From Spirochaetales bacterium (GTDB lineage Bacteria > Spirochaetota > Spirochaetia > SZUA-6 > JAFGRV01), in NCBI GenBank assembly GCA_016928415.1, contig JAFGKU010000131.1, positions 1-64,000 of the forward strand: a stretch of DNA of 64,000 nucleotides, written 5' to 3'. Both the position numbers and the translations under genes were made by a program. Of this stretch, positions 10,115-60,669 are shown piece by piece. The notes below the pieces were generated by a model. It saw only the letters and a program-made list of their open reading frames with translations. It ran no database searches and was not told the DNA's origin. Within the stretch, counting starts at the first letter, position 1. The number at the start of each line of letters is the position of its first letter.

Positions 10115-10147
10115 TACTATACACCAGCTGGAATGGATTTTTGATCC

Positions 10148-10181
10148 TATAAATAAAAAAAAAGTAATTTTTTTATTTATA
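10148..10181. repeat. Perfect AT-only palindrome
   Basis: Two perfect 14-base arms, TATAAATAAAAAAA and its complement, separated by AAGTAA. It sits between the divergent lipoprotein and glgP genes. It would form a weak AT-only hairpin. A terminator role is unlikely because neither flanking gene ends here; a protein-binding or bending site is possible. Confidence 0.5.
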
Positions 10182-10226
10182 CGGTTACCAAAGAGGAGGA
10201 GAAAACGTATCCCGTTTTACCGGCTA

Positions 10227-10255
10227 TTGATTTCATTGAATAAAATTACTATGTT
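10227..10255 (+). promoter_or_regulatory. Probable promoter of the glucan phosphorylase gene
   Basis: TTGATT at 10227-10232 and TATGTT at 10250-10255 with 17-base spacing, about 75 bases before the ATG. The ribosome site AGGAAAGAGAG lies just before the start codon. Confidence 0.4.
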
Positions 10256-10328
10256 AATCTCATCGTTATCCCTATAGCAGGTGACGGTTTGGTTTATTGG
10301 AAAGTGAGTTAGGAAAGAGAGAATTTGA

Positions 10329-35191: not shown

Positions 35192-35195
35192 TGCA

Positions 35196-36775: not shown

Positions 36776-36776
36776 A

Positions 36777-37796
36777 TCAATCCTCCTTCAACCTGTTATA
36801 AACCTCGCAGGGATTGGCAATACCCGGCACGCAGGCCGATACGCAACGGCCGCAGCCGACGCATGATATTTCCCCGACCTTTTCGGCGACATACTTGCCT
36901 TTCCTGTAGTACCGGTGCCTGTACCTTTCCTCTTTTGTCTTCCTGAAGTTATGGCCTCCCGCCACAAGCGCAAACCTCTCCAGCATGCATCCATCCCAGG
37001 ACCTGATTCTTTTTCCCGAGGACAAGTCCCATTCCGCCTCATCCTGTACGTCGAAGCAATAGCAGGTGGGACAAACCATGACGCAGGAGCCGCAGGAAAA
37101 ACAGAGTTCGGCTTTTTCCGCCCAAACGGGATGTTCCCTGCTTTTATCCAGAAGCCCGGGTATTTCTGACAGGGACGGTTTCAACGGATAGGCCCTTAAA
37201 CGGGACTTATTCTCTTCCCAGACCTTGTGGCGGCTGTCTACCAACGCCATTTCAGCGGTCACCAGCCCGCTCATGCCCTTGATCAATTCCTTGCCCTTTC
37301 CCGTTCTCACATCCACAACATAGGATGAGTCCACTTTGGTCAGGAGAATATCGTATTCTCCCTCAATTACCGCCGTATTCATGTTTCCCGAAAAATTATG
37401 CGCGGACGGTGTCTGGACATCCAAAGCCACAATCGTCGCGTTATTTCTCCTCGTCATGTAATGGATGTCATTATTATCACTGGAAAAAATTTTGTCCATC
37501 TGGCGGATGGCCGCAAGATCATAGGGATGAACGCCAAAAAGAACAAACGGCTTTTCATCAACCACGCTGTCATATTTCTGCCCCTTGTAGGAAAGTAATG
37601 TTTCCTTCGGGGGAAGAAAATATTTTTTGGGGGGCAGGATCGTAACATCGTAATCCAGCCGCAGGGAAGAGGAATCGTTTAACGCATTAAAAGCAAAACG
37701 GTCTCCCTTCGCCTGAACCCCATAGACGGTGACCTTGGAAAGCAAGTGGTCGACCCATTGCCGTAAATCTTCCTCGCTCATCTTGTAATAACTCAT
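36777..37796 (-). CDS. hydB: Hydrogenase beta subunit, 4Fe-4S protein
   Basis: A 339-residue subunit with two C-terminal [4Fe-4S] motifs: CFSCGSCVMVCPTCYC and CVGCGRCVSACVPGIANPC. It resembles anaerobic sulfite reductase subunit A and the sulfhydrogenase beta subunit. It is first in the operon, one base before the gamma gene. It links the FAD subunit with the hydrogenase core, and in relatives it is implicated in polysulfide reduction. Confidence 0.9.
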   Translation of the reverse strand: MSYYKMSEEDLRQWVDHLLSKVTVYGVQAKGDRFAFNALNDSSSLRLDYDVTILPPKKYFLPPKETLLSYKGQKYDSVVDEKPFVLFGVHPYDLAAIRQMDKIFSSDNNDIHYMTRRNNATIVALDVQTPSAHNFSGNMNTAVIEGEYDILLTKVDSSYVVDVRTGKGKELIKGMSGLVTAEMALVDSRHKVWEENKSRLRAYPLKPSLSEIPGLLDKSREHPVWAEKAELCFSCGSCVMVCPTCYCFDVQDEAEWDLSSGKRIRSWDGCMLERFALVAGGHNFRKTKEERYRHRYYRKGKYVAEKVGEISCVGCGRCVSACVPGIANPCEVYNRLKED

Positions 37797-46117: not shown

Positions 46118-46723
46118 TTATTCCGCTTCTTCGACGGTGATTGTTTTCGTGGGGCAGACGTAAGCGCAGGACCCGCACCCTATGCATTTGCTGGCCACCT
46201 TTCTGAACGGACTGGTTACCACCCGCTGGACACCCCTTGTTTCAAAACTGAGCGCGTGGCGTTCGGTAATTTCGGCGCACACACGCACGCAGAGCCCGCA
46301 GAGCACGCAGTTCGTCTCCTTTACCCGGGGAGCGCGATTAAGCAGGTAGTCCCTCACCACATCGTCATTTTCCCCGGAAAAAACGCCGTACTCTTCAGCC
46401 ATCCGCCTGATGACTTCGGAATCGGGGCACCTGGATAGCATCAATTCAATAATGAATACCCTGGCCTTTTTAACGGTTTCCGATTCCGTATCGACGACCA
46501 TGTTGTCATCGATAATGGTTGAACAGGCCGGCATCAGCCGCGGGGGCGCCTTTGACTCCCTGTGCGACACCTCCACAAGGCAGACCCGGCATCCGGAGTA
46601 TGCCGAAAGCATTTTATGGTAACAAAGCGTGGGAATCCTGACTCCCGCCTTTTGAGCGCAGGTCAATACGGTAGTGTTCTCCTCCGCCTCAACGGGATTT
46701 CCGTTCAATATAATTGTCTTCAT
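46118..46723 (-). CDS. Short NuoG/HoxU-like iron-sulfur protein lacking the H-cluster domain
   Basis: A 201-residue electron-transfer subunit. An N-terminal plant-type [2Fe-2S] domain uses the cysteines in LCYHKMLSAYSGCRVCLVE plus a later ACS. Two C-terminal [4Fe-4S] motifs follow: CVLCGLCVRVCAE and CIGCGSCAYVCPTKT. In NuoG and HndD a His-Cys3 cluster (H-x3-C-x2-C-x5-C) normally lies between; here the region reads MLSRCPDSEVIRRM and does not have it. The catalytic domain that follows in HndD-type [FeFe] hydrogenases is also absent, and the protein ends right after the ferredoxin part. The start is the ATG sharing one base with the upstream NuoF-like gene's stop. It is the last gene of the 16-gene run. 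Confidence 0.85.
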   Translation of the reverse strand: MKTIILNGNPVEAEENTTVLTCAQKAGVRIPTLCYHKMLSAYSGCRVCLVEVSHRESKAPPRLMPACSTIIDDNMVVDTESETVKKARVFIIELMLSRCPDSEVIRRMAEEYGVFSGENDDVVRDYLLNRAPRVKETNCVLCGLCVRVCAEITERHALSFETRGVQRVVTSPFRKVASKCIGCGSCAYVCPTKTITVEEAE

Positions 46724-48519
46724 TATTCCACCTCCACGGCATCGAAGCGGCAGACACTCTTGCAGATGCCGCATTTGATGCAGCCGGACTGATCGATTAC
46801 ATGCACGGCCTTCCGCTCTCCCGTGATTACCTTCGACGGGCAGTTCTTGGCGCAAAGAGTACAGCCGGTGCACTTTTCCTTTGAAATGGTATAGGTTATC
46901 AAAGCCTTGCACACCTTTGCCGGGCATTTCTTGTCCCTGATATGCGCTTCATACTCGTCTCGGAAATGTTTAATGGTCGTGAGAACGGGGTTGGGGGCCG
47001 TGTTGCCGAGGCCGCAGAGGGCCGTCTGCTTGATGAGGGTTCCCATCTTTTCAAGCAGTTCGATATCCTCTTCCCTGCCCTTTCCTTTTGTAATGTTCTC
47101 CAGTATTGTATGCATGTGGTACGTTCCCTCGCGGCAGGGACTGCATTTGCCGCATGATTCGCCCAATGTAAAGGAAAGGAAATACCGGGCCACTTCCACC
47201 ATGCACGTTTCCTCGTCCATCACGATCATACCGCCCGACCCCATGATGGAACCGATTTCCTTGAGGGATTCATAATCGACCGGTATATCCAGGAGGGATG
47301 CGGGAATACAGCCGCCCGAAGGGCCGCCGGTCTGAACGGCCTTCAGCTTTTTGTTATCCGGGATACCTCCCCCGATGTCGTAAATGATTTCCCGAAGCTT
47401 GATGCCCATGGGCACTTCCACCAAACCCGTGTTGTTCACCTTGCCGACGAGGCTGAAAACCTTGGTCCCCTTGCTCGTCTCCGTTCCTATTCCGGAAAAC
47501 CATTTTGCCCCCCGTGCTATGATATGGGGAACATTGCCCCAGGTTTCCACGTTGTTGATGTTGGTGGGAGACCCCTTATACCCGGAAACGGCGGGATACG
47601 GGGGTCTTGTCCGCGGTTCGGGAACCATGCCTTCCAGCGAACCGATGAGTGACGTCTCTTCGCCGCATACAAAGGCGCCTGCCCCCCTGTTCACCGAAAT
47701 GGTAAAATCGAATCCCGTTCCCAGGATGTCTTCGCCTAAAAGACCGTACTCGGTGGCCTGGTCAATGGCCTTCAATACCCTTTCAAGGGCAAGGGGGTAT
47801 TCATCCCTCAGGTAAATAAATCCGTGCTTGGCGCCTATGGCCCTGGCGCCGATGACCATGCCTTCCAGGACCTCATGGGGGTCGGATTCCATCACGGACC
47901 TGTCCATGAAGGCTCCGGGATCTCCCTCGTCGCAGTTGCAGATAATATATTTTTCATCGCCTTTCGCATTGCGGCAGAATTCCCATTTCTTTCCCGTCGG
48001 GAAGCCGGCGCCTCCCCTCCCCCTCAGTCCGGAGGCTTTAATCTCCTCGATTATCTGTTCCGGCGTCATTTCCGTGAGCGCTTTTGCCGCTCCCTTGTAC
48101 CCGCCGCGGGCTATGTATTCGTCGATATTCTCGGGATCGATGATGCCCCTGTTGGAAAGAACAATGAGCATCTGCTTTTTAAAGAACCCGATCTCACTCA
48201 TGGTCGGTACGGGATTCTTTGTTTCGGGCGGCGTGTACATCAGTTTCTGTACCGGCCGGCCTTTCAGCAGGTGCTCTTCCACTAGAAGAGGGATATCCTC
48301 CTCGCTCACGAGCTGATAAAAGATTTCTTCCGGGTGAACGACGATAATGGGGCCATTGGCGCAAAAGCCATTGCAGCCGGTGGGTATCACCTGCACCTCT
48401 TCGGCAAGCCCATTGGCTTCAATCTCCCTGTTGAGAGCGTCTATGATGTTCAATGATTTGTTTGATACGCATCCCGTACCGGTACAAACCATCAGGTTCA
48501 TTCTGTATTGTGATGCCAT
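46723..48519 (-). CDS. NuoF/HndC-like NADH-binding flavoprotein subunit
   Basis: A 598-residue subunit in three parts. The N-terminal about 90 residues are a thioredoxin-like [2Fe-2S] domain (CTGTGC with the CNGFCANGP second pair). The core is the FMN/NADH domain: FMN block GRGGAGFPTGKKW, NADH block GAGAFVCGEETSLIGSLEG, and [4Fe-4S] ligands SCGKCSPCREG. The C-terminus adds two ferredoxin-like [4Fe-4S] motifs, CTGCTLCAKNCPSKV and CIKCGICKSVC. This domain set is that of HydB/HndC in electron-bifurcating hydrogenases. It oxidises or reduces NAD(P)H and should exchange electrons with ferredoxin-type partners. It sits one base after the HndB-like gene. Confidence 0.93.
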   Translation of the reverse strand: MASQYRMNLMVCTGTGCVSNKSLNIIDALNREIEANGLAEEVQVIPTGCNGFCANGPIIVVHPEEIFYQLVSEEDIPLLVEEHLLKGRPVQKLMYTPPETKNPVPTMSEIGFFKKQMLIVLSNRGIIDPENIDEYIARGGYKGAAKALTEMTPEQIIEEIKASGLRGRGGAGFPTGKKWEFCRNAKGDEKYIICNCDEGDPGAFMDRSVMESDPHEVLEGMVIGARAIGAKHGFIYLRDEYPLALERVLKAIDQATEYGLLGEDILGTGFDFTISVNRGAGAFVCGEETSLIGSLEGMVPEPRTRPPYPAVSGYKGSPTNINNVETWGNVPHIIARGAKWFSGIGTETSKGTKVFSLVGKVNNTGLVEVPMGIKLREIIYDIGGGIPDNKKLKAVQTGGPSGGCIPASLLDIPVDYESLKEIGSIMGSGGMIVMDEETCMVEVARYFLSFTLGESCGKCSPCREGTYHMHTILENITKGKGREEDIELLEKMGTLIKQTALCGLGNTAPNPVLTTIKHFRDEYEAHIRDKKCPAKVCKALITYTISKEKCTGCTLCAKNCPSKVITGERKAVHVIDQSGCIKCGICKSVCRFDAVEVE

Positions 48520-48520
48520 A

Positions 48521-48907
48521 TCATATGATCCTTTCGTTTCCTATTGCCAGGGCCAGTTCCTTAACCATTTTCCGGCCCATGACGTGTTCATCGAAAATCC
48601 TGCCCACCTTTTCCTCGGTGAGTTCCGCGTACTTGACAGGCGGCTCCCCTTCCAGCTGGATTGTCGCCATGGGTTCATGACTGCAGAGCCCCGCACATCC
48701 GGAGGTGGTGACAAGGACATCATCCGCCCTGTTTTCCTCTTTTTTGGCGAGGAAGGCCTTTAAAATCCCCCTCGCTCCCGTCGCGATCCCGCAGGTTCCC
48801 ATGTGAACCGTTATTTTAGCGCGGCAGGCTCCTTCCCGAAGCGCCGTTGATGAGCGCATTCTTTCTGTTATCTTATCCAGATCTTCCGGTTTTAATTTCA
48901 TTACCAT
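48521..48907 (-). CDS. HndB-like [2Fe-2S] thioredoxin-fold subunit
   Basis: A 128-residue protein with a C-terminal thioredoxin-like [2Fe-2S] domain: cysteines in MGTCGIATGA and TSGCAGLCSHEP. The N-terminal helix begins MVMKLKPEDLDKITERM. It is the usual companion of HndC in NADP-reducing [FeFe] hydrogenases and probably passes electrons to it. It overlaps the preceding small-ATPase gene by 7 bases and is followed one base later by the NuoF-like gene. Confidence 0.88.
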   Translation of the reverse strand: MVMKLKPEDLDKITERMRSSTALREGACRAKITVHMGTCGIATGARGILKAFLAKKEENRADDVLVTTSGCAGLCSHEPMATIQLEGEPPVKYAELTEEKVGRIFDEHVMGRKMVKELALAIGNERII

Positions 48908-49320
48908 ACCTCCTCATACGTGTAATTAAACTCAATCTCCGGATGAGAGGCTTTCAGCACATAAATTGTTTCATCCATGTCGCCGATCTTTTTACAATCC
49001 GGATGGTCAAGCATAAATACGGCCGTGATTTTCGTTCCCGAGCCGGTCCCACTTTCTATCGAGAACGTTCCGCCGCATTCGCGGACCGATTGTGCGTACA
49101 ATGGCAATCCAAGTCCGATACGTTTCCCCTCCTTAGTGGTATAAAAGGGATCAAGGGTCCTGTTCACCTCATCATGGACCATGCCATTTCCATTATCCGT
49201 TATCACTATCGTAAGGGTCTTCCTTGAAGAATCCTTGACGAGCGCAATTCCTATTTGCGTGGCATTTGCATTGATGGAATTTTCAACGATGTCCAGAATA
49301 TGCAATGCTATCTCCTCCAT
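48901..49320 (-). CDS. Small histidine-kinase-type ATPase
   Basis: A 139-residue GHKL-type ATP-binding protein with N-box LHILDIVENSINANAT and G-boxes DNGNGM and LGLPLYAQSV. No phospho-histidine domain is present, so it is not a complete kinase; anti-sigma-like or regulatory phosphotransfer roles are possible. It is placed within the redox operon and overlaps the neighbours by 1 and 7 bases. Comparable small ATPases appear beside clostridial and thermotogal hydrogenase genes, suggesting control of the complex. Mode of action unknown. Confidence 0.85.
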   Translation of the reverse strand: MEEIALHILDIVENSINANATQIGIALVKDSSRKTLTIVITDNGNGMVHDEVNRTLDPFYTTKEGKRIGLGLPLYAQSVRECGGTFSIESGTGSGTKITAVFMLDHPDCKKIGDMDETIYVLKASHPEIEFNYTYEEVW

Positions 49321-50048
49321 TAAGCCGTCACCCGCCTTCCGTCCATTCCGTGCAATGCCTTCCTCACTTCATCCAGGGTCATTGTCTCCATTACAAACCC
49401 TGTATGCGCACGCCCTATCTCCTCAGGAAAATGGGCATCGGAAAAGGTCACGAAGGCAAAATCCCTCCTGATATCCTCGATTTCAGGACGCACCCGGTAA
49501 TTCGGGGATACTTCCACGGCGTCAAGCCCCAGGTGCGGCGGCACAAACCCAAGCTGGCTGACCAGGCTGAAGGCCTGCCTGTCCACGTGCGACGCGATGG
49601 CTATCCCGTTCCTGTCCCGGATCTCCGCAATCAGCTCTTCGATGGACATCGTGGTTGCGCCGATCAGAAGGCGGTTGTTCCTGCCGGCGATCGTGCCGTC
49701 AGGATTGACAATCCATTGTTCCCCGAACGTATCCGCCGAATTTTCACCCGGCAAATGCGAATATACCATCTCCTGAAAATCCATGATCGCCCCGCCTTCC
49801 ATCATACAAAGAACGTGTATTTCCTCCTGGGAGCAGACCTCCATGCCTTCAAGCACGGGGAATCCCCGTCTGGCTCCTTCCTCCTTCACCGCCATGACAT
49901 TTTCCGCGGAATTATGATCGGCAATCATGATGCCGTCCAGACCGCGTTCAATCGCCGCATCCACGATCCCGGGAGGAATCATCCTGCTGTCGCCGCAGGG
50001 AGACAGGCACGTATGGATATGCAGGTCGAGTCTGTATTCATTCAGCAT
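49320..50048 (-). CDS. PHP domain metallophosphoesterase
   Basis: A 242-residue protein with the PHP signature: HIHTCLSPCGDS near the N-terminus, GIMIADHNSAEN, and further His/Asp near VTFSDAHFPEEIG. PHP domains hydrolyse phosphoesters using bound metals. The substrate is unknown; in related redox operons this gene accompanies DRTGG and CBS proteins and is thought to have a regulatory role. Its stop shares one base with the next gene's start, and its start overlaps the preceding DRTGG gene by 11 bases. Confidence 0.9.
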   Translation of the reverse strand: MLNEYRLDLHIHTCLSPCGDSRMIPPGIVDAAIERGLDGIMIADHNSAENVMAVKEEGARRGFPVLEGMEVCSQEEIHVLCMMEGGAIMDFQEMVYSHLPGENSADTFGEQWIVNPDGTIAGRNNRLLIGATTMSIEELIAEIRDRNGIAIASHVDRQAFSLVSQLGFVPPHLGLDAVEVSPNYRVRPEIEDIRRDFAFVTFSDAHFPEEIGRAHTGFVMETMTLDEVRKALHGMDGRRVTA

Positions 50049-50394
50049 CTTCGGAAATCCCGGGAATGCCCAGTGAATAAAGACGGCCTATCAATTCAAA
50101 CGCCGGCAATTCGCTGACGAGAAGCGGTACGCCCTCCGCTTCAGCTTTCTCGAGTGTCTCTTTCTCGGGTTCACGGTTGTTTATCAGTACAATGGCTGCA
50201 ATACCTGTCATACAGGCAACGGCAACGATATTCAGGTGCACCTGGAGGGTAATCCAGATATCCCCTTCCCTTGAATGGGCCATAACGTCGCTCATCAGGT
50301 CGCTCGCATAACCCCTGGCAATCTCCCTGTCAAGCTGGGAACCGCCGCAGCGGACCTTCAACTTTAATTTCTCAATCAATTCCTTAATCTTCAT
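50038..50394 (-). CDS. DRTGG-domain protein (first)
   Basis: A 118-residue protein resembling the DRTGG domain found in phosphotransacetylase and in CBS-containing regulators (GYASDLMSDVMAHSREGDIW, then AIVLINNREPEKETLEKAEAEG-type pattern). It is one of two such genes in this operon; a similar one lies near 51.5 kb. The two share the pattern SDLMSDV, so a duplication is likely. Probable nucleotide- or metabolite-sensing regulator. It overlaps the CBS-ATPase gene by 4 bases and the PHP gene by 11. Confidence 0.78.
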   Translation of the reverse strand: MKIKELIEKLKLKVRCGGSQLDREIARGYASDLMSDVMAHSREGDIWITLQVHLNIVAVACMTGIAAIVLINNREPEKETLEKAEAEGVPLLVSELPAFELIGRLYSLGIPGISEDAE

Positions 50395-51338
50395 GCTGCT
50401 CCAATCGGTATTCCAAAATTCAAAACGGTTCCCTGGCCTTTTTCAGAGGCGATGGAAAAGGTCTGGGCGCAGTTCCTTATGTTGATCAATCCCATGCCGG
50501 CGCCGAACCCCAGTTCCCTCACCCAGTCCGGTGCCGTGGAAAAACCGGGACTCATTGCCTCTTCTATATTCTCTATTCCAGGTCCCGAATCCTTTACCTT
50601 GACGTTCACTTCGTCTTTATGGATGGAGACGGTAATCTCCCCCGCCCCGGCATACAATATTATGTTCATCTCCGCCTCGTAAATGGCGATGCAGGTCCGC
50701 CTGATCACCGTTGGATGGATTCCGAGACGGCGGAGGGTTTTCCTGATCCGGCTTGCCACCCGGCCCCCGTTCTGGACGGCATCCACGTCATGGTTCCTCA
50801 TGGCATCGCAGCCCTTCATGAAGTACTGGAATATAAGGGTGGTTTTGTCCGCGATGATATCCTCGAAAAAATGGCTGGCCCTGTAGCGGTGGATTTCCTC
50901 CTCCTGGTAATCGACCTCCATTTTTTTTAAAAGGCCCTCGATGATATCACCCTTGGTAATGACACCGGTCAATGATTTTTGCCTGCGATTAATGACGGGA
51001 ATCCGCCCGTAGCCGAATTTCTCGATAATGCTTATTGCCTGAACAAGGGGTTCGTCTTCGTATAAGGTCTTCACTTCCCTGTTCATTTTCCCGGCTATCC
51101 TGTTTTCCTGTTGGCCCCCGGCCAGCCAGTTAATGAAATCCTCTATGCTGATGATTCCCACGAGTCTGCCGTCATCGACAACCGGTGTGCCCGAGATCCT
51201 GTTATCCCGGAGTATGGCCCGAAGTTCCATCATCTGCATATTCGAGGAAACGGTGATGACGTCTTTCATCATCACATCGCCCACTTTCAACTCGTAAAAC
51301 AATTCCTGGATTTTCCGGATGGACAGGTCATCTTTCAT
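50391..51338 (-). CDS. CBS-pair protein with GHKL ATPase domain
   Basis: Residues about 15-140 hold two CBS repeats (VGDVMMKDVITVSSNMQ, then GRIPVINRRQKSLTGVITKGD), which usually bind adenine nucleotides. Residues from about 190 form a GHKL ATPase with AIYEAEMNIILYA, DSGPGIENI and FGAGMGLINIRNC. The combination suggests energy-charge sensing linked to an ATPase output. No phospho-His domain is visible. It overlaps both DRTGG genes (4 and 11 bases), so its position is fixed within the regulatory block of the operon. Confidence 0.9.
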   Translation of the reverse strand: MKDDLSIRKIQELFYELKVGDVMMKDVITVSSNMQMMELRAILRDNRISGTPVVDDGRLVGIISIEDFINWLAGGQQENRIAGKMNREVKTLYEDEPLVQAISIIEKFGYGRIPVINRRQKSLTGVITKGDIIEGLLKKMEVDYQEEEIHRYRASHFFEDIIADKTTLIFQYFMKGCDAMRNHDVDAVQNGGRVASRIRKTLRRLGIHPTVIRRTCIAIYEAEMNIILYAGAGEITVSIHKDEVNVKVKDSGPGIENIEEAMSPGFSTAPDWVRELGFGAGMGLINIRNCAQTFSIASEKGQGTVLNFGIPIGAA

Positions 51339-51678
51339 AGCAGTCCCCTAAACCTGCATCAAACAGCCGCCCGCAGGCGCCATACATGGAAAGTCCGGTC
51401 AGTAGAAGGAATATTGAATTCTTTTCAGCAAGCTTTACCGCATCATCCCCCGGTTTTTTCCCATTGACAAAACACACGACTGAAATCTCCGTCATTTCCG
51501 CCGTGCGTACCGTCTGGATATTGGTAAGACTGGTCACCAGGACAGCCCGTGATTTGCTGAAGGAAAGCACGTCGCTCATAAGGTCGCTGGCACAGACCAA
51601 ATCCACTTCTGTTTCACCCACAGGGATCTGCGTTAATATCTCTGCTTTAAGCACCCTGGCGATTTCGTCGATTTTCAT
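51328..51678 (-). CDS. DRTGG-domain protein (second)
   Basis: A 116-residue relative of the first DRTGG protein: it shares SDLMSDV (here CASDLMSDVLSFS) and a similar order of beta strands (VSLVCFVNGKKPGDDAVKLAEKN-type). It overlaps the CBS-ATPase gene by 11 bases and the NuoE-like gene by 4. The two copies flank the CBS-ATPase gene, which suggests heterodimeric or competing sensors. Ligand unknown. Confidence 0.75.
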   Translation of the reverse strand: MKIDEIARVLKAEILTQIPVGETEVDLVCASDLMSDVLSFSKSRAVLVTSLTNIQTVRTAEMTEISVVCFVNGKKPGDDAVKLAEKNSIFLLLTGLSMYGACGRLFDAGLGDCYER

Positions 51679-52148
51679 TCCGGGCTTCCGTCTTCATCCT
51701 TTTTTTTCAGGCCTTTAATAAGCTTCGTAACAATTTTTTGATCGGATTTTCCGTGGTATTCGTCATCAACCACGATCAATGGGCTCAATGCGCAGGCACC
51801 GAGGCAGTTTACCGTCTCCAATGTAACCTGCTTATCTTCCGTTGTTTCCCCCGCCTTGACATTCAGGTCCCTTTCAAATATGTCCAGCAGCTTCTGGGCA
51901 CCTTTGACGTGGCAGGCGGTTCCCATGCAGACACAGACATGGTGCTTTCCCCTCGGTTCAAGCCTGAATGAATTATAAAACGTTGCCAGGCTGTACAGCC
52001 TGCTCAACGGGACATCCAGTTTGTCCGAAATCTCGACAAGCGCCTCTTCCGGCAGATAGCCGAATTCCGAGGAAACATCCTGCAGCAATCCGATGAGCTG
52101 CTCCTTGTCTTCCTTGTATTTATCTATGATTTTATCAAGTCCTTCCAT
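51675..52148 (-). CDS. NuoE/HndA/HoxE-like [2Fe-2S] subunit
   Basis: A 157-residue thioredoxin-like [2Fe-2S] protein. Helical N-terminus FGYLPEEALVEISDKLDVPL, then cluster ligands CMGTACHVKG and NCLGACALSP, the classic C-x4-C ... C-x3-C spacing. It is the small partner of the NuoF-type flavoprotein. It starts 14 bases after the truncated NqrF gene, which ties the NADH module to the membrane pump in one transcript. It overlaps the second DRTGG gene. Confidence 0.93.
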   Translation of the reverse strand: MEGLDKIIDKYKEDKEQLIGLLQDVSSEFGYLPEEALVEISDKLDVPLSRLYSLATFYNSFRLEPRGKHHVCVCMGTACHVKGAQKLLDIFERDLNVKAGETTEDKQVTLETVNCLGACALSPLIVVDDEYHGKSDQKIVTKLIKGLKKKDEDGSPE

Positions 52149-52162
52149 AAGACTCCCTTAAT

Positions 52163-52615
52163 TTACCTGATCGTTACCTTCCACCGTTTCTTCGGATCGA
52201 ATTTCTTCTGCACCACTATTTCCCTCACAACGGAGAGGAAGTCGGGAATGGCCGCTTCCATGTCCTCCTTTACCTTGACCTGGCAGGCAAGCCGCATGTT
52301 CTCCCTCTTCTCCCTGGTGCTCATGAAAATTTCCTCGGTGGGAAGAATCTGTCCTCCCCCCTTCGTCACCCGGATTTTACAGTAGCCGCAGCTGCCTTTT
52401 CCGCCGCAGGACGATGATATTTCCACATGGTTTTCTATCAAGGCGTTCAGGAGGGTGTTGCCCCCATCAACGACAAATTCATCCACCTTATCATCCTGCC
52501 GGACGGTAACCCGGCATTTGCCGTAGGTTATCAGCAGCCGGTCCGCAATAACGAGCAGGATCGTGATGACGAATAAAATACCGTTCATGACCAGGACAGG
52601 CATAAAATTAATCAT
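52163..52615 (-). CDS. Truncated NqrF: membrane anchor and [2Fe-2S] domain only
   Basis: A 150-residue protein with one N-terminal transmembrane helix, then a plant-type [2Fe-2S] domain: CGGKGSCGYC and, later, RLACQVKVK. The match to NqrF continues to the point where NqrF's FAD- and NADH-binding reductase domain would begin (around W in KKRWKVTIR), and the protein stops there. The missing part is about 260 residues, so it is not a random frameshift tail. It sits where rnfB or nqrF would be in the rnfCDGEAB/nqrABCDEF order. Its start is fixed by the ATG two bases after the nqrE-type stop. Electron input probably comes from another subunit. Confidence 0.88.
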   Translation of the reverse strand: MINFMPVLVMNGILFVITILLVIADRLLITYGKCRVTVRQDDKVDEFVVDGGNTLLNALIENHVEISSSCGGKGSCGYCKIRVTKGGGQILPTEEIFMSTREKRENMRLACQVKVKEDMEAAIPDFLSVVREIVVQKKFDPKKRWKVTIR

Positions 52616-52617: not shown

Positions 52618-53196
52618 TTACACCACCCCCGTAAATCCCATGATGGCGAGCGCCAGGATACCCGCCGATACCATGATGATTCCCGGGCCCTTCATGCCGC
52701 CCGGTATATCGCCGACCAGTTTCAGTTTCTCGTTTATACCCGCCGTTACAATTATGGCACCCGTCCAACCGCATGCGGAACCGAAGGCGAATACGACCGA
52801 ATCAATGAAACCGTACTCGCGGATAACCATGAAAAGCGAGACCGCCAGGACGATGCAATTTACCGTGATGAGGGGAAGGAAAATGCCGAAGGCAGCCTGT
52901 AATGCGGGGAAAAACCTTTCCATTATCATTTCAACGAGCTGCACCGTTGCGGCGATCACGATGATGAAAATGATGTAATAGAGAATTTCACTTCCCGTCA
53001 TGAGTAAAAGCCGGTAAATGGGCCAGTTGATGGCGGCGGTGAGCGTTACGACAAAAATAACGGCCACCCCCATGCCTATGGCGGTATTGAGGCTCCGCGA
53101 CAGGGAAATGAAGGGGCACATCCCGAGAAGGTACGTCAGTGCCATGTTATAGGTAACAATGGACGATACGAAAACGATCAATAAATGTATGGCCAT
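52618..53196 (-). CDS. nqrE: NqrE/RnfA integral membrane subunit
   Basis: A 192-residue protein with six predicted membrane helices. The family region YLLGMCPFISLSRSLNTAIGM and a second conserved Cys block (GSACGWTGA) are present, matching the cysteine pair that NqrE and NqrD are thought to use for a membrane [2Fe-2S] cluster. It lies between the nqrD-type gene (5 bases before) and the truncated nqrF (2 bases after). Confidence 0.9.
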   Translation of the reverse strand: MAIHLLIVFVSSIVTYNMALTYLLGMCPFISLSRSLNTAIGMGVAVIFVVTLTAAINWPIYRLLLMTGSEILYYIIFIIVIAATVQLVEMIMERFFPALQAAFGIFLPLITVNCIVLAVSLFMVIREYGFIDSVVFAFGSACGWTGAIIVTAGINEKLKLVGDIPGGMKGPGIIMVSAGILALAIMGFTGVV

Positions 53197-53201: not shown

Positions 53202-53846
53202 CTACCCCATATCCTTTGTTTCAATTTTGGCCAGGGTCCGTGAAATCCAGATAAACACCGCCAGGAGGAAAAACGCTCCGGGCGCCATGGCCATGACCAC
53301 CCAGTTCTGCCACCAGCTGTCCAGCCAGGCGGCCGGTATCACATTGACACCCAGAAGGGTCCCGAAACCGAGGATTTCCCTCACCACCGATATGATGACA
53401 AGCGTATAGGTATAGGCGAACCCGTTTGAAAGGGCATCGAGCACGGAATAATACGGGTTATTCTGTATGAAGAACGCCTCCGCCCTGCCCATGACGATGC
53501 AGTTGGTTATGATAAGGCCCACGTAGGGCCCGATGGATTCGCTTATGCCCGGAAAAAACGCCTTTAAGAAACGATCGACAATGATAACGAAGGACGCTAT
53601 GGTGATCATGTAAGTGATCATCCTGATCCGGTTCGGGATCATCTTCCTCAGGGAGGAAATGATAATGGCCGTGGAAACAAGAACGAACGTGAGACTGGCT
53701 CCCATCGCTATGGCATTGGCGACCCTGTTGGAAACGGCCAGCGCCGAACAAATTCCGAGTAACATTGAGAAAACGGGATGGTCACGCCAGATGCCGTCAA
53801 GAATCGTTTTGGCTGTCCTGGATTTTAATAGACCCTGTGAACCCAT
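53202..53846 (-). CDS. nqrD: NqrD/RnfE integral membrane subunit
   Basis: A 214-residue membrane protein with six helices and the family motif LLGICSALAVSNRVANAI. A second conserved region IITNCIVMGRAEAF carries the other cysteine. With NqrE it forms the heart of the ion-translocating membrane part. Its start shares one base with the nqrC-type stop, and it precedes the nqrE-type gene by 5 bases. The long C-terminal helix region (NWVVMAMAPGAFFLLAVFIW) is typical. Confidence 0.9.
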   Translation of the reverse strand: MGSQGLLKSRTAKTILDGIWRDHPVFSMLLGICSALAVSNRVANAIAMGASLTFVLVSTAIIISSLRKMIPNRIRMITYMITIASFVIIVDRFLKAFFPGISESIGPYVGLIITNCIVMGRAEAFFIQNNPYYSVLDALSNGFAYTYTLVIISVVREILGFGTLLGVNVIPAAWLDSWWQNWVVMAMAPGAFFLLAVFIWISRTLAKIETKDMG

Positions 53847-54427
53847 CAGTTTCCTCCTGTAATTTTTTCAATTTTAGGACCCAGCTCGCCGTTGAGTATT
53901 TTCACGAACGCCTTACTGGAGAGGGTCGCACCCGTTATCGCGTCAACCTCGTTGTCCTTTTTTGCCGGGGACCTGGTGATAACGATGGACGGGGAAAACG
54001 CCTTGTTCCGGAACTGGTCCAGGTACGGCTTCTCGGCAATCCGGCTTCCCAGGCCGGGGGTCTCTTCCTGGAACGAGATGGTCACATTTTTAATGGTTTT
54101 AAAATCGGGGTTCAGGGCGATGACGCCACGTATGGGCCCCCATAACCCTTTTCCCTTGTATTCGAAAGCCGTTTCGTTATTTTCGGAAACGTAATAATCC
54201 ATCTCATTACCGGAATCCCTTCTAACGGTGACCTTTTGCTGAAAAACGGAATCCATATCGTCTTCCGTAAAGGGAATTTCCAGGGCCATCAATATATTCG
54301 TCTTCAGCTTCTTTTCCTCATTTGCCTTGATGATGGGAGCCGTAAAATAATTCACGGAAATGATTGCCGATGAAAGGATGCCGCCCATTATCAATATGAA
54401 AAGAAGCATCAGGACCACCTTTTTCAT
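53846..54427 (-). CDS. nqrC: NqrC/RnfG FMN-binding subunit
   Basis: A 193-residue protein with one N-terminal transmembrane helix (VLMLLFILIMGGILSSAI) and an extracytoplasmic FMN domain. The covalent FMN attachment motif is DAITGATLSS, where Thr takes the flavin. The start is the ATG that overlaps the nqrB-type stop by 4 bases. An FMN transferase (ApbE) is required for this attachment and is not in the window. Confidence 0.92.
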   Translation of the reverse strand: MKKVVLMLLFILIMGGILSSAIISVNYFTAPIIKANEEKKLKTNILMALEIPFTEDDMDSVFQQKVTVRRDSGNEMDYYVSENNETAFEYKGKGLWGPIRGVIALNPDFKTIKNVTISFQEETPGLGSRIAEKPYLDQFRNKAFSPSIVITRSPAKKDNEVDAITGATLSSKAFVKILNGELGPKIEKITGGN

Positions 54428-55452
54428 TTCTTCACCGCCTTGTACTTGATTGACAGGATGGCGGTATCCAGTACCGGCGTCAGGGCATTCACGAGGATGA
54501 TGCTGAACATGACCCCCTCGGTGTATCCCGAAAAGGTGCGGATCAGGACGGTGAAAATGCCGCAGAGAATACCCGCTATCCACTTGCCCGAGTTCGTCAT
54601 TGGCGATGTGACCGGGTCGGTGGCCATGAAAAAGGCGCCGTATAACAGCCCGCCAGTCAAGAGCTGGAGTAGCGGGGGAGCAAATACATTGGGCGCAAAA
54701 AAGCCGCCGATGAACGCGAATAACGCCACGGTTCCCAGGTAGGCAATGGGAATCCTGAAATTACTCACTTTTATAAACATGAGGAACAGCCCGCCGGCTA
54801 TTATGCCGAGACGGAACACCTCGCCCAGGCTTCCCGCGGACATTCCCAGAAGAAGGTCCCACACGGGAGTGATGACATGGTCGGCCTTGAACAATCCCAG
54901 GGGCGTTGCCGATGTTATCGCATCGGAAAGCGGCATCTTGTAGACACCTGACATTACCCCGGGAAAGGCTATCGTGATGAAAAGCCTCCCGACAAGAGCC
55001 GGGTTGAAGATATTCCTGCCCGTTCCGCCGAACACTTCCTTGCCGAATAACACGCCGAAGAACGCGCCGACGGCGACTATCCAGAGAGGCGTTGCCGGGG
55101 GAAGGGTCAGGGGAAAGATGATCCCGGTAACGAGGAATCCCTCCTCGATGTCCTTCTTCCTGATGACGGCGAAACTCACCTCTACAAGGCCGCCGACAAC
55201 ATAAGAGACGGCTATGATCGCGAGCACATAGAGCCCGTGAAAATAAATGGCCGCCAGCGCAGCGGGCATAAGCGCGATGATGACGCAGGACATGTAGCGT
55301 TTGATTTCAATATTATCACGGATATGCGGGGCGCCGACGGAAATTTCCTGGACGCCGTAAACAATGCCCTTCAATGTACTGAATATGGTGGCGAACCGCT
55401 TTAATCCTCTTATCCTTGACAGTTTGTCAAAAATGTTGTCGGACCCCTTCAT
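54424..55452 (-). CDS. nqrB: NqrB/RnfD membrane subunit
   Basis: A 342-residue multi-helix membrane protein that anchors a covalent FMN and, in NQR, is the probable sodium-channel subunit. The flavin site is DAITSATPLG (the Thr of TSAT), and the region ATDPVTSPM, with GTGRNIFNPALVGR, is family-typical. It overlaps the nqrC-type gene by 4 bases and directly follows the NqrA/RnfC gene. Confidence 0.92.
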   Translation of the reverse strand: MKGSDNIFDKLSRIRGLKRFATIFSTLKGIVYGVQEISVGAPHIRDNIEIKRYMSCVIIALMPAALAAIYFHGLYVLAIIAVSYVVGGLVEVSFAVIRKKDIEEGFLVTGIIFPLTLPPATPLWIVAVGAFFGVLFGKEVFGGTGRNIFNPALVGRLFITIAFPGVMSGVYKMPLSDAITSATPLGLFKADHVITPVWDLLLGMSAGSLGEVFRLGIIAGGLFLMFIKVSNFRIPIAYLGTVALFAFIGGFFAPNVFAPPLLQLLTGGLLYGAFFMATDPVTSPMTNSGKWIAGILCGIFTVLIRTFSGYTEGVMFSIILVNALTPVLDTAILSIKYKAVKK

Positions 55453-56916
55453 TTACACACGCTCCTTTTCGGGATTCGAATCTTTGCCGGATCCGGTCTC
55501 GCCCGGTTCCTGTATCAACCCGTCCGCAGCGAGCTTTTCCTTCCCTTTCTTGATCAACGCGGCAACCGGAATCTTGGAGGTGCAGACATACGTGCAGAGG
55601 TTACAGTCCACGCAGTCTTCAATACGGTACTGCACGAGCTTTTCATTGATGATGTTCCTTTCCGCATACCTGTGTAAAAGCTGCGGCAGCAGCCGTGAAG
55701 GACACACGTCGGCGCAAAAACCGCAGGAAATGCATGCCCTTTCCTCACCATTGATATTCGTATCCAGTTTTTTGCCGAACGGCAGGAAAGAGGCTACAAA
55801 CACGGGTGTTATGGAATCCTTTCTCATACCGGGACGGGCGAAAGCCAGCAGTTCGCCTTCATGATTCTCCGGGACGGCTATTATCTGGTGCATCTTTTCC
55901 GTCAGGGGCCGGTCCAGGTCATCCAGGGCCTTCCCGTTCAAAACGCTGTTCATGATGAAGCGGACACTCTTCGGCACGGCCGTTTTCCCCTTGAGAATAT
56001 CTTCCAGCAGGGTGCCCAACCTCAGCCGGTAATGGCGGTTCTGCTCAAACCCGCTGCCGCTGAAGGCAACAACCCGCTCCACGAGAGGTTTCTTTTTTAC
56101 CACCGCTTCGTAGATGTGAACAATATCCTGAAGGTTAAAAACAGGGATATTCCGCGTGTGAGTGTTTATGCCCGGGATCGAAGAAATGAGAATGTTCCTG
56201 TTATCCTGCGGATACTTCGGTTTTACCCCGTATACTGAAATCTTTTGATCGGAAGAAAAATTTGAGGCCAGTTCTTTTATTATTTTTTTTTGGTTTCTGC
56301 TCAATACCACATGAACCCGGGCCCCTTGAAATGCGACTCCCAAAATCTTTAATCCCGTGATGACGGATTCCATTCCCGCATCACCAAGGAGAGCCTGAAT
56401 GGAAACATTAAAAACATCGGAATCCGTATGAGCCACGATGATGTCTTTTACATCCTTCTTCCCGATTCGCGAACTGTTGAACCGTGTCGGTATACCATTG
56501 GATCCCAACGAGCTCACACCTGAAATGTATAAAATCTCATCCAATTCATCTTCCGTCATTTTATCCCAGGCGGACGGGGAATTATGGGCAGGGGCCCACT
56601 CCTCTGACTGCCCGGGTTTAATGATGACGGCAGCCGTCTTAACACCATTAAGCGTAATTTTTTTTACGGATTCCACCATTCCCGAAATGGAAGAATGAAT
56701 GGGGCTTGAGAGCGAATTATCGTCCCTGGCGATAAGCTGTCCGGTCAATACCTTCTGCCCCACTTCCACGCAAGGCATTGCTTCCTCGAATCCGTCTCTC
56801 TTCAGCGGCAGGATAACCTTATCAGGAAGAGGCAGTGTAACGGTTTCCTCCCGCGGCTGCCCCTTGAACCGTTTAAAACGGTACCCGCCCCTGAAAGTTA
56901 TGCTTTTAATTTTCAT
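55453..56916 (-). CDS. NqrA/RnfC-type subunit with two 4Fe-4S motifs
   Basis: A 487-residue subunit whose N-terminal half resembles NqrA and the flavin/NADH-binding part of RnfC (FRGGYRFKRFKGQP, then SSISGMVESVKKI). The C-terminus carries two [4Fe-4S] motifs typical of RnfC and absent from NqrA: CISCGFCADVCPSRLL and CVDCNLCTYVC. The neighbours (nqrB, C, D, E and an NqrF-type end) look like NQR, so this first subunit gives the system a mixed character. It starts 28 bases after the triheme cytochrome gene and abuts the NqrB gene with no gap. Confidence 0.9.
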   Translation of the reverse strand: MKIKSITFRGGYRFKRFKGQPREETVTLPLPDKVILPLKRDGFEEAMPCVEVGQKVLTGQLIARDDNSLSSPIHSSISGMVESVKKITLNGVKTAAVIIKPGQSEEWAPAHNSPSAWDKMTEDELDEILYISGVSSLGSNGIPTRFNSSRIGKKDVKDIIVAHTDSDVFNVSIQALLGDAGMESVITGLKILGVAFQGARVHVVLSRNQKKIIKELASNFSSDQKISVYGVKPKYPQDNRNILISSIPGINTHTRNIPVFNLQDIVHIYEAVVKKKPLVERVVAFSGSGFEQNRHYRLRLGTLLEDILKGKTAVPKSVRFIMNSVLNGKALDDLDRPLTEKMHQIIAVPENHEGELLAFARPGMRKDSITPVFVASFLPFGKKLDTNINGEERACISCGFCADVCPSRLLPQLLHRYAERNIINEKLVQYRIEDCVDCNLCTYVCTSKIPVAALIKKGKEKLAADGLIQEPGETGSGKDSNPEKERV

Positions 56917-56944: not shown

Positions 56945-57388
56945 TTACCAATTCTTACTACCGGTCTTAACAGGCATGCTGCCCGTTTTCTCATCAAATG
57001 AATGACAATTCAGGCACGCGCCATTATAATTGGAAATAAAATGATTATCTTTCGGGTTATGGAAATGAGCTTTATGCAGAATGAGTTCCAGCTTTCCGGC
57101 TTTTGCCCCTTCCTTATGGCACATAAAACAATCCTTGGGCACATTTTTCACGATTTTATCGATTTTAGGATGCCCTTCCAGCTTGCCCAATGAAACATTG
57201 AGCCTGTAATCCAGCTTGTCGTTTATCTTTTTATGGCAGTCCACACACCCATTGGGATGGTCGTCTTTTACCGTGATTCCAGGTAAAAAAGGCGGCTCTT
57301 TTTTGGTAGCGCTCATTAATAACAATGCGGCCCCCGATATAACCACGAAAAATACGATAAAAAACAATACCCGCGTTATCTTTTTCAT
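56945..57388 (-). CDS. Triheme cytochrome c
   Basis: A 147-residue exported protein anchored by an N-terminal hydrophobic helix (IVFFVVISGAALLLM). Three heme-attachment motifs are visible: CVDCH (48-52), CFMCH (87-91) and CLNCH (125-129). Extra histidines (44, 73, 105, 108, 110, 116) could serve as axial ligands. It resembles small c7/NapC-type carriers. It is the first gene of the 16-gene run and 28 bases before the NqrA/RnfC gene. In Methanosarcina a multiheme cytochrome (MmcA) similarly precedes rnf, which is a useful analogy, not proof of the same role. Confidence 0.88.
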   Translation of the reverse strand: MKKITRVLFFIVFFVVISGAALLLMSATKKEPPFLPGITVKDDHPNGCVDCHKKINDKLDYRLNVSLGKLEGHPKIDKIVKNVPKDCFMCHKEGAKAGKLELILHKAHFHNPKDNHFISNYNGACLNCHSFDEKTGSMPVKTGSKNW

Positions 57389-57627: not shown

Positions 57628-58362
57628 ATGTTTTTCAAGAATGTTGAAGGTTTGAAGAGAATTCCATTAAGCTCAAAACTGGGCTTAACGGCTTTTCTTC
57701 TTATTGCCGGCATCGGCTATCTCTTTGGTTTTTTAAATATCTACCTTACTTACAGCCCGGTAGACCGGCAGCCCGGCCTTTCATTAGAAGATATCAGCCT
57801 TTCCTTTTACGGCGCGAGGGAAACTACCAAGCTTGAAAAAGCGATAGACGGAACCATGAAAGACTACTTTGAGTCTGATAATGATTACAATGCCGTGAAG
57901 GAATGGATCCAGTCAGGAGCGGACGGGAGCACATTTGAACTGGTCCAGAAAATATTTGATTCAAGCTGCACAACGTGTCATTCCAAAGAATCGGAAGTTG
58001 CCGGCATTGTAACGGCTAACTATGATGATGTTAAGGAATTACTCATCCAGGATACGGGGAAATCACCGGTAAGGCTGGTTTCATTAAGCCACACGCATAT
58101 ACTGGCTACCCTGGCCATCATTTTCGCATTGGCCCTGGTATTCTCCTTTACATCCTTCAAGGAAATCTGGAAAATCATTGTTATCGTGGGCTCATTTCTT
58201 TCCATTGTTTTAGATGTGGGGTCCTGGTGGCTCGCCAAATTATCACCCGCATTTTCTATCCTTGTAATTGCAGGAGGTGTATCATTGGCCCTTTCTTTCC
58301 TCGTTCTTATCCTGCTTTCACTTTACGATATATGGCTGAAAAAGGAAAAAGCAGGCGCCTGA
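57628..58362 (+). CDS. Heme-binding membrane protein with one CxxCH motif
   Basis: A 244-residue protein with an N-terminal transmembrane helix, a periplasmic domain with one heme motif CTTCH (114-118), and three further helices (LVSLSHTHILATLAIIFALA with two histidines near the membrane face, then IWKIIVIVGSFLSIVLDVG, and the last). The histidines could hold a b-type heme as well. It is divergent from the triheme-Nqr operon and may be its electron partner or regulator. I do not recognise a named family. Ribosome site AGAAAGGAA precedes the start. Confidence 0.7.
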   Translation: MFFKNVEGLKRIPLSSKLGLTAFLLIAGIGYLFGFLNIYLTYSPVDRQPGLSLEDISLSFYGARETTKLEKAIDGTMKDYFESDNDYNAVKEWIQSGADGSTFELVQKIFDSSCTTCHSKESEVAGIVTANYDDVKELLIQDTGKSPVRLVSLSHTHILATLAIIFALALVFSFTSFKEIWKIIVIVGSFLSIVLDVGSWWLAKLSPAFSILVIAGGVSLALSFLVLILLSLYDIWLKKEKAGA

Positions 58363-58447: not shown

Positions 58448-58816
58448 CTATATATAATTTTTTATCAATGCAACAAGTTTATCCGTTTCCACGGGTTTAT
58501 TGATGAATTCCTCGGCACAGATATCATCTTTATTGAAATCAAAGGCATATTCCCTGTTGATGGCGGTAAAAACGAATATGGGCAGTTCGGGGTTCTTTTC
58601 CTTAATTTCCCCCGCCGCCTCAAAACCGCGGGTTTTTTTCTCCGGGAACATGACATCCAGCAGAACAAGATCAGGAGATACTTCATCAATCATCGCCTTC
58701 CCCTTTTCAACCGTATCGGCAGAATGGATTTCGTATCCTTCATGACTTAATAAAGCGCCGACGGTTTCAAGAATATCCTCATCATCGTCGATAATCAGGA
58801 TTTTTTGCTTGTCCAT
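58448..58816 (-). CDS. Single-domain response regulator (receiver only)
   Basis: A 122-residue receiver with acidic pocket DDDEDILETV, acceptor Asp in LVLLDVMFPEKK, Thr in FVFTAINRE and the switch Lys in INKPVET. No output domain, so it may act by phosphotransfer or protein binding, as CheY-like and Spo0F-like proteins do. The start MDKQKILIID has GAGGAGG upstream; a longer frame to 58855 lacks one. It directly follows the kinase gene and ends at the hairpin terminator. It is the natural partner of that kinase. Confidence 0.92.
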   Translation of the reverse strand: MDKQKILIIDDDEDILETVGALLSHEGYEIHSADTVEKGKAMIDEVSPDLVLLDVMFPEKKTRGFEAAGEIKEKNPELPIFVFTAINREYAFDFNKDDICAEEFINKPVETDKLVALIKNYI

Positions 58817-58867
58817 TTTTTCCTCCTCTTCATGATGTCCCGTTATAGACTGCAATTTTTTACTGTT

Positions 58868-60226
58868 TTAGTCAATATTACTTTCGACTTCACCCCTTTT
58901 GCATGGATGGTAAATATGAAAAGACGTACCCCGGTCCTGCTCTGAATAAACGGAGATACTCCCGCCAAGAGCCTCAACAGCCCGCTTGATAATGGAAAGT
59001 CCCAGTCCGGTACCATCGCGTTCAATCTTCCGCGCCCTTTGCGTCCTGTAGAATTCCTCGAATATTTTATCCATTTCTTCGGGCAGAATTCCGATTCCCT
59101 CGTCCTGCACCGTAATGTGTACCATGGCATTTTTTTGCTCAGCAATGATTGAAATGGTACCGCCTTCCCGGGAATATTTAATCGAATTTGAAATGAGATT
59201 GCCAAGAATAATATTAAGCAGGTCCCTGTTGGAAGTCAGGACAATATCATTATAACAATTCACGGAAAACTTCATCTTCCTGTCCCTGGCCCTGGCAGTA
59301 AAAAGATCGATATTATAATCTATAATTTCACGCAGATTGATTTCCTGGCTTATATATTTCGCGTCTTCTTCCGACTTCATATACGCGTAATCGATCATTT
59401 CATCTATTATTGTCAGTAGATTATCGATCCGCCGGTTGGCTTTTCTCAAAATCTCGTCAGTTTTATCCGGGATTTCCCCCGTGATGCGTTTAAGCACCAT
59501 TTCAATAAAACCTTTTAAAGCCGCGATGGGGCCGCGAATTTCGTGTGTTACCTGCAGGATGAAATTCGACTTGATCTTGTCCAGGCTTTTATAGCGGTTC
59601 AACTCAACTTCCACGCTCTTACCGCGCTGTTCAATCCTCGATTTAATGCTTGTACTGAGATAACCCGTTATGACAAGGGTCGAAATAAGCCCGAAGGCCC
59701 GGACAGGTGTCAGGTCATGATAAGCCTGTTGTGAAACCGGATACAACCCAAAATGGGGCAGCAGGGAAAAATATTCCGCAAAGGTAACGGAAATAAAGGC
59801 GACAAGCAGAACACTGAGGTAAAAAATAACAACCCTGCGTGAGAAAATGAAGGCGGTGAGCATGATGTGGAATACGAAAAAATAAATGAAGGGATTTTCA
59901 AGGTAGCCTGTAAAAAATATAAGGAGGAACAAAAGAATATAATCACAGATTACCTGTACGTGAAAGAGAACATTCATTTCCTGCCGGGAAAGTATTTTCT
60001 TTTTTAAAACAAAAAAGTAAACGGTAAAAAAAAGATTGAGCAGGAACAGAATGCTGTTCAGGATATACAGATTCAGAAACGGAATATCGTACTTAAGTGA
60101 AAAAAATACCGTCAGAAGGGCGATAAAGACACCGAAACAGGCAATCCACCGTAATATGATAAACCAGCTTAACAGCCTGTTAATATCGGTGAATTGTTTT
60201 AATACCTTTGTTTTAGGATTCATCAT
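58868..60226 (-). CDS. Sensor histidine kinase with multi-helix membrane domain
   Basis: A 452-residue kinase. The first 200 residues hold about six hydrophobic helices without an obvious periplasmic sensor domain. The kinase part has the phospho-His H in THEIRGPIAALKGF, and ATPase boxes NIILGNLISNSIKYS, DEGIGIL and GTGLGLSIIKRAV. It overlaps the ferritin-like gene by 4 bases (ATGA), so sensing may be linked to that protein. The receiver-only gene downstream is the probable target. The signal is unknown. Confidence 0.92.
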   Translation of the reverse strand: MMNPKTKVLKQFTDINRLLSWFIILRWIACFGVFIALLTVFFSLKYDIPFLNLYILNSILFLLNLFFTVYFFVLKKKILSRQEMNVLFHVQVICDYILLFLLIFFTGYLENPFIYFFVFHIMLTAFIFSRRVVIFYLSVLLVAFISVTFAEYFSLLPHFGLYPVSQQAYHDLTPVRAFGLISTLVITGYLSTSIKSRIEQRGKSVEVELNRYKSLDKIKSNFILQVTHEIRGPIAALKGFIEMVLKRITGEIPDKTDEILRKANRRIDNLLTIIDEMIDYAYMKSEEDAKYISQEINLREIIDYNIDLFTARARDRKMKFSVNCYNDIVLTSNRDLLNIILGNLISNSIKYSREGGTISIIAEQKNAMVHITVQDEGIGILPEEMDKIFEEFYRTQRARKIERDGTGLGLSIIKRAVEALGGSISVYSEQDRGTSFHIYHPCKRGEVESNID

Positions 60227-60669
60227 GAATATTCGGACACTATGTTCTTTATATTTTCTATCTGTAATTCCTTGAATTTCACCAATGAGGCGAACAATTC
60301 CTTTTGGGCGGCAGTTACGAGCCTGTCATGGATCGATTGGTAAAAACCTTTTAATTTTTCCTCATAGTCTAAAATTTGAGCGGCAATATCCGAGGGGGTG
60401 GATTCCCTGGTAATTTTCTTCTGCGGCACGATTTCCTCATCCTTATAGCCCAGGGCGTGCAGCATCCACTCGGTCCTGCCGTATTTTTCTATCTGTATAT
60501 TTTCCAAAATGGAAAGCCGTTCTATATGGTTCTCCTTCAACTGGTTAATGATTTGTTTTGATTGCGTATTTTTTAAACCGAATTCCGCAACATCATAAAG
60601 GTCCGTCAATTTTTTTTCCCACGCGACCGTAATTTTCAGGATATCCTTCAAATCAGTGTAAGAAATCAT
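60223..60669 (-). CDS. Ferritin-like four-helix protein
   Basis: A 148-residue helical protein resembling the ferritin/rubrerythrin fold by helix pattern (AWEKKLTDLYDVAEFGLK, ENHIERLSILEN, YEEKLKGFYQSIHDRLV, FKELQIENI). The usual ExxH metal ligands are not complete, so metal binding is uncertain. It might be a sensory partner of the kinase it overlaps by 4 bases. Transcribed from a promoter with a perfect -10 about 90 bases upstream. Confidence 0.6.
   Translation of the reverse strand: MISYTDLKDILKITVAWEKKLTDLYDVAEFGLKNTQSKQIINQLKENHIERLSILENIQIEKYGRTEWMLHALGYKDEEIVPQKKITRESTPSDIAAQILDYEEKLKGFYQSIHDRLVTAAQKELFASLVKFKELQIENIKNIVSEYS

Follow-up and report, generated by a model that had tools for sequence, protein, structure and literature searches.

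The window analyzed here, a stretch of 64,000 nucleotides from a Spirochaetales bacterium (contig JAFGKU010000131.1 of assembly GCA_016928415.1), carries an operon in which the genes for the core of an Rnf/Nqr-type pump are followed by a short gene resembling the first part of nqrF, here called sF, and then by a module of the bifurcating (Bfu) type (Table 1). The order after sF is bfuC, five small regulatory-looking genes, a gene for an HndB-like protein, bfuB, and bfuA.

Table 1. Features of the operon and its surroundings (window positions, except in the last row)
Feature	Coordinates	Strand	Remarks
Tri-haem c-type cytochrome	56945..57388	-	3 CxxCH; beside the operon, conserved there in L001 and L153
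RnfC/NqrA-type subunit	55453..56916	-	487 aa; two 4Fe-4S motifs kept, RnfC FMN/NAD motifs lost
RnfD/NqrB-type subunit	54424..55452	-	342 aa; FMN threonine motif and NqrB Gly140-Gly141 pair
RnfG/NqrC-type FMN subunit	53846..54430	-	194 aa
RnfE/NqrD-type membrane subunit	53202..53846	-	both cluster cysteines
RnfA/NqrE-type membrane subunit	52618..53196	-	both cluster cysteines
sF	52163..52615	-	150 aa; TM helix, NqrF-type [2Fe-2S] ferredoxin domain, tail FDPKKRW; no FAD/NADH domain
BfuC (HydC/NuoE type)	51675..52148	-	thioredoxin-like [2Fe-2S]
Small protein, working label DRTGG1	51328..51678	-	operon-conserved; no Pfam match
CBS pair and HATPase protein	50391..51338	-	operon-conserved
DRTGG-domain protein	50038..50394	-	operon-conserved
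PHP-domain protein	49320..50048	-	operon-conserved
HATPase protein	48901..49320	-	operon-conserved
HndB-like protein	48521..48907	-	thioredoxin fold, [2Fe-2S]
BfuB (HydB)	46723..48519	-	598 aa; N-terminal [2Fe-2S], FMN/NAD 51K domain, NADH_4Fe-4S, C-terminal 2x[4Fe-4S]
BfuA (HydA N-terminal/HoxU type)	46118..46726	-	[2Fe-2S] and two 4Fe-4S motifs; no catalytic hydrogenase domain
D-G-E-A-F system (L095, contig C56 of genome G000)	7242-11074		full-length NqrF (372 aa); no NqrA/RnfC gene in cluster

The initial annotation described the product of positions 52163 to 52615 as a protein with the membrane helix and [2Fe-2S] motifs of NqrF that ends at the start of the reductase domain. The coordinates are correct, the strand is minus, and the translation bears out the description. 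The gene starts 2 bases past the end of the rnfA/nqrE-type gene, its product contains the motifs CGGKGSCGYCK and RLACQV, and residues 7 to 127 align with positions 5 to 124 of the 405-position TIGR01941 (nqrF) profile. Vibrio cholerae NqrF aligns with sF over about residues 9 to 130, and an AlphaFold model of sF (pLDDT 79), with a helix at residues 5 to 29 and a ferredoxin fold, has V. cholerae NqrF chains as its top PDB matches. The name NqrF holds as far as the N-terminal transmembrane helix and the [2Fe-2S] motif are concerned, but not as a statement of family membership: because the protein scores 112 bits against a cutoff of 295 and lacks the catalytic FAD/NADH reductase domain, it should not be called NqrF.

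It had also been claimed that the stop, a 14-base gap, and a new gene mark a designed end rather than a sequencing frameshift. The stop is indeed followed, after 14 bases, by the ATG of the nuoE-like gene bfuC, which has a GGGAG ribosome site. A tblastn search with four NqrF reductase domains as queries recovered no convincing reductase remnant in any frame near sF, the best match there (28 bits) lying on the opposite strand inside the rnfA-like gene, and this rules out a frameshift with a displaced reductase domain. As positive controls, the same queries recovered a hydrogenase flavin subunit 16 kb away in the window (E value of 3e-14) and a full-length NqrF elsewhere in the same genome.

Homologues of equal length exist. 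We use the name sF where the match extends as far as the final residues or nearly so; by this definition 18 loci, on 18 contigs, emerged from 84,980 species genomes scanned, and they come from Spirochaetota, Planctomycetota, and unclassified MAGs. All 18 proteins share a C-terminal tail, [FY][DKN]xx[KRL][RQ]W (FNTKKRW in L009), which occurs in none of 72 full-length NqrFs, a set in which the second tail position was searched for D or K only. Search scores in 61 genomes related to that of the window form two peaks, with ten matches of 246 to 263 bits spanning the whole length of sF and all others at 149 bits or below; full-length NqrF matches in these genomes fade near residue 131. Beyond close relatives the gene is rare: a draw across the phylum contained it in 3 of 392 genomes, and a draw around a Sedimentisphaerales genome (G435) contained sF proper in 1 of 392. 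Given the fixed length, the protein's own conserved tail, the lack of a displaced reductase, and the independent homologues, the end is a designed one. We conclude that sF is a conserved adaptor and not a broken gene, with chance and frameshift excluded.

Judged by its sequence, the pump core upstream of sF is Nqr-like. The cluster cysteines of NqrD and NqrE and the FMN threonines of NqrC and NqrB are all present, but there is no full-length NqrF at the operon. Of 20 sF systems, 19 show a Gly-Gly pair in the RnfD-type subunit at the sites of NqrB residues 140 and 141; this subunit also carries HxxDxxDxKR as in NqrB, whereas nine canonical RnfD proteins have neither. The glycine pair has a role in the quinone site. 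The two glycines are highlighted where NqrB and RnfD are compared in the accessible part of PMC4014512. The FMN/NAD motifs GGAxFPT and ECEP, which 9 of 9 canonical Rnf systems keep, have been lost from the RnfC-type subunit of every sF system examined, whereas both 4Fe-4S motifs are retained. The canonical Rnf complex is ruled out as an identity for the system by the absence of rnfB from the operon, the lost RnfC motifs, and the tree placement.

The system shares with Na+-NQR of the V. cholerae type the B, C, D, and E-type core, the transmembrane and [2Fe-2S] half of NqrF, the NqrB glycine pair, and an NqrA/RnfC subunit without an FMN/NAD motif. It differs in having BfuABC instead of an FAD/NADH domain on F, in an NqrA-type subunit that keeps two 4Fe-4S motifs, and in a B subunit of RnfD-like length. 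With Rnf (ferredoxin:NAD+ oxidoreductase) it has in common the order C-D-G-E-A and the RnfC 4Fe-4S motifs, but its core groups with Nqr-type cores (100/100). This also has a bearing on the origin of Nqr from Rnf, an RnfC-type subunit with 4Fe-4S motifs but no FMN/NAD motifs being intermediate between RnfC and the cofactor-free NqrA. The NqrA/RnfC-type subunits beside full-length NqrF in L170, L173, L023, and L024 also appear to keep their 4Fe-4S motifs (read in the alignment for L023 and deduced from motif counts for the other three), unlike the cofactor-free NqrA of Vibrio.

The module downstream of sF has the domain content of the Bfu family. BfuB has a 51K FMN domain, SLBB, NADH_4Fe-4S, an extra C-terminal 4Fe-4S domain, and an N-terminal [2Fe-2S] domain, BfuC is of the thioredoxin-like [2Fe-2S] type, and BfuA has 2Fe-2S and 4Fe-4S domains; here we take the Pfam domains in BfuB to be counterparts of the InterPro domains in PMC9304861. 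BfuB aligns over its full length with HydB of the bifurcating NiFe-hydrogenase 7t2r (E value of 1e-251) and with HydB of 7q4v, and these alignments cover the N-terminal [2Fe-2S], the FMN domain, and the C-terminal dicluster. BfuC matches HydC. According to the available text of PMC9304861, the N-terminal [2Fe-2S] and the C-terminal dicluster are the extra clusters that set bifurcating enzymes apart. A plain NuoEF input, as in complex I, is rejected because BfuB has these clusters and its match to NuoF (E value of 1e-117) is much weaker than that to HydB. By analogy with the family, BfuABC would have bifurcating activity with NAD(H) and ferredoxin.

BfuB and BfuC are equivalent over their full length to the subunits of HydABC, HndABCD, and NiFe-HydABCSL, and the HndB-like extra subunit may be likened to HndB of bifurcating hydrogenases. 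In contrast to those enzymes, the BfuA of the sF system has no hydrogenase domain, and the third partner is sF with the pump. The closest BfuB relatives unlinked to sF (L210, at 4481-12413, L211, L212, and L213) adjoin, by eye, genes for HdrA/HdrB/HdrC-like proteins and NiFe-hydrogenase, apparently an Hdr-linked Bfu module. Elsewhere in the window, positions 33433-37796 hold what looks by eye like a group 3-type NiFe hydrogenase cluster, with large, small, FAD/NAD, and 4Fe-4S subunits and a maturation protease.

The same Bfu gene set recurs in the sF loci. Of the 17 with sequence downstream of sF, 16 have BfuC either as the following gene or joined to sF; the exception is L009, where the gene after sF encodes the HndB-like protein. 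sF and BfuC form a single protein of 305 to 325 aa in L002, L006, L011, L013, and L015 (the last cut at a contig end), on contigs from separate species genomes, although a structure model of the fusion is poor (pLDDT 52). BfuC and BfuB are one protein of about 1,260 aa in L017 and L018. The link between the Bfu module and the pump is well supported.

In a tree of the D, E, and A subunits, Rnf stands apart (100/100) from every F-bearing system. Among the latter, the sF systems are divided between a clade of 15 rows (100/100) and, elsewhere, a planctomycete lineage that sits beside spirochaete systems with full NqrF (100/99); a single clade of sF-linked cores is rejected (AU test, P of 0.008), and BfuB shows the same two-way split. 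These trees therefore indicate at least two origins, or exchanges, of the partnership between an Nqr core and Bfu, a statement that concerns the D+E+A pump cores and BfuB and not the ferredoxin domain of sF itself. The positions of sF-linked cores in two places within the NqrF-bearing cores likewise leave unsupported the idea that sF is one ancestral intermediate between RnfB and NqrF.

We consider it probable that the operon encodes an Nqr-type pump in which sF is a membrane [2Fe-2S] relay and BfuABC replaces the FAD/NADH domain of NqrF, so that NADH and ferredoxin are confurcated with export of Na+ and reduction of a quinone, most likely menaquinone. We lean, if only slightly, toward the fuller proposal in which confurcation of NADH and reduced ferredoxin to menaquinone drives an Nqr-type Na+ pump that was assembled at least twice by exchange of the NqrF reductase for BfuABC, with sF as adaptor. 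The physical complex, the use of ferredoxin, the quinone acceptor, the direction, and Na+ as the ion are all features that we infer.

As predicted from the Bfu family, NADH and reduced ferredoxin would be oxidized together at the single FMN and the Fe-S clusters of BfuB and BfuC. Electrons would leave through BfuA and/or BfuC for the [2Fe-2S] of sF, a route suggested by the fusion and the co-conservation, and would then pass singly to the cluster, also [2Fe-2S], that lies within the RnfE/RnfA (NqrD/NqrE) pair, a step drawn from Nqr structures as summarized in the accessible part of PMC12174285. From there the covalent FMNs of RnfG (NqrC) and RnfD (NqrB) would deliver them to a quinone, probably menaquinone as motifs and gene neighborhood suggest, and Na+ would presumably be expelled during electron transfer. 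This path assigns no role to the two 4Fe-4S sites of the RnfC-type subunit, and the direction of the machine could be reversed.

The genes beside the operon bear on the acceptor. UbiE and MenA genes, both above family cutoffs, directly follow the operon in L151, MenA and polyprenyl-diphosphate synthase genes do so in L152, and a polyprenyl-diphosphate synthase gene does so in L155, a member of the family to which the window belongs. UbiE passes the cutoff in 10 of 16 genomes that have sF and in none of 4 members of the class that lack it. However, in the 18 genomes searched MqnC was absent from 17 and MenB from all, and MenD gave only below-cutoff matches that are probably other TPP enzymes; the quinone step is weakened by these results, and organisms of this group might take up a naphthoate precursor. 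In the genome of the window (85% complete), none of MqnC, MenB, MenD, and UbiE is recognizable, and the sole prenyltransferase is a divergent one of the UbiA type; either a quinone is therefore taken up from outside or produced by a pathway that escaped recognition, or something else serves as acceptor. Menaquinone is a likely acceptor for the group and a candidate for the organism of the window. A MenA-type prenyltransferase and UbiE without MqnC, MenB, or a convincing MenD were observed in G003, G009, G441-G443, G434, G437, and G438, which suggests salvage of a naphthoate precursor or some other route there.

These incomplete menaquinone genes are among the reasons to weigh a different exit, in which the link from Bfu through sF to the pump is the same and electrons pass to the 4Fe-4S clusters of the RnfC-type subunit, or from periplasmic flavins to neighboring c-type cytochromes. 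Retention of both 4Fe-4S motifs is consistent with such an exit, and so is the fact that, in the window as well as in relatives, the operon has two haem proteins for neighbors, a tri-haem cytochrome and a membrane protein of the mono-haem type. We nevertheless think it unlikely, since the Gly-Gly and HxxD motifs are common to quinone-reducing Nqr, the NAD/FMN motifs are lost, menaquinone genes adjoin the operon in relatives, and some NqrA-type subunits that work beside full NqrF keep 4Fe-4S motifs too. The connection of the tri-haem cytochrome to the complex is putative. The mono-haem membrane protein lies, with a response regulator, a histidine kinase, and a 148-aa protein, at 57628-58362 and 58448-60669 of the window; the first three recur beside the operon in several relatives.

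Still less probable is a machine running in the opposite sense, with BfuABC bifurcating quinol electrons, driven by the Na+ gradient, to NAD+ and ferredoxin and so supplying low-potential reductant. Bfu enzymes are described as reversible in the available text of PMC9304861, and Rnf as able to run backwards in that of PMC12174285; transfer from menaquinol to ferredoxin is, however, strongly uphill, and the canonical Rnf of the same genome is available for that task. We give little credence to two separate enzymes in one operon, a soluble BfuABC that acts on a different substrate, alongside an Nqr-like pump in which a soluble carrier feeds sF. The Bfu module does bring its own regulatory-looking genes (CBS, DRTGG, PHP, and HATPase), as a movable cassette would, but sF is fused to BfuC in five loci, its tail is absent from NqrF, the operon has no catalytic subunit for a separate Bfu enzyme, and the Nqr-Bfu pairing formed or was exchanged at least twice. 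That sF is a truncated NqrF pseudogene or an assembly error, as its missing catalytic domain might suggest, is practically out of the question, having been refuted by homologues of the same length with the same end and tail, the lack of a remnant, and the good ribosome site of the next gene.

If the confurcating Nqr-type pump is real, a sodium pump joins the known partners of the bifurcating Bfu core, and the electron input of Rnf/Nqr is exchangeable among RnfB, NqrF, and Bfu via sF. The accessible parts of PMC4014512 and PMC12174285 give RnfB as the input of Rnf and NqrF as that of Nqr and mention no third. Nuo-Bfu, a published prediction of complex I with BfuABC as its input, and Mbh-Bfu (PMC9304861, available text) share with the sF system the use of BfuABC as the electron input of an ion-pumping membrane complex, but there the pump is complex I or Mbh and here it is of the Nqr type; the same text names no Nqr- or Rnf-type Bfu partner and mentions Rnf once. 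A search of the open-access literature (subscription papers being outside its reach) returned no description of an Rnf/Nqr-Bfu complex. With potentials of -280 mV for NADH, -500 mV for ferredoxin, and -74 mV for menaquinone (PMC9304861, available text), the driving force per electron toward menaquinone would grow from about 0.21 V to about 0.32 V when the two donors are averaged. This larger drive could explain why an anaerobe keeps the sF system beside a normal Rnf.

The genome of the window has two further pump relatives. One, on contig C7, is a canonical Rnf in which the contig end carries the beginning of RnfB; the other, counted here as the third system, sits on contig C56 and consists of D-G-E-A and a full-length NqrF without an RnfC/NqrA gene (Table 1). 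The presence of three pump relatives with three electron inputs in one cell argues that sF is a specialized input. The layout of the third system (L095) forms a clade (100/100) in Spirochaetota and Clostridia with L019, L020, L027, L171, L172, L174, and L179.
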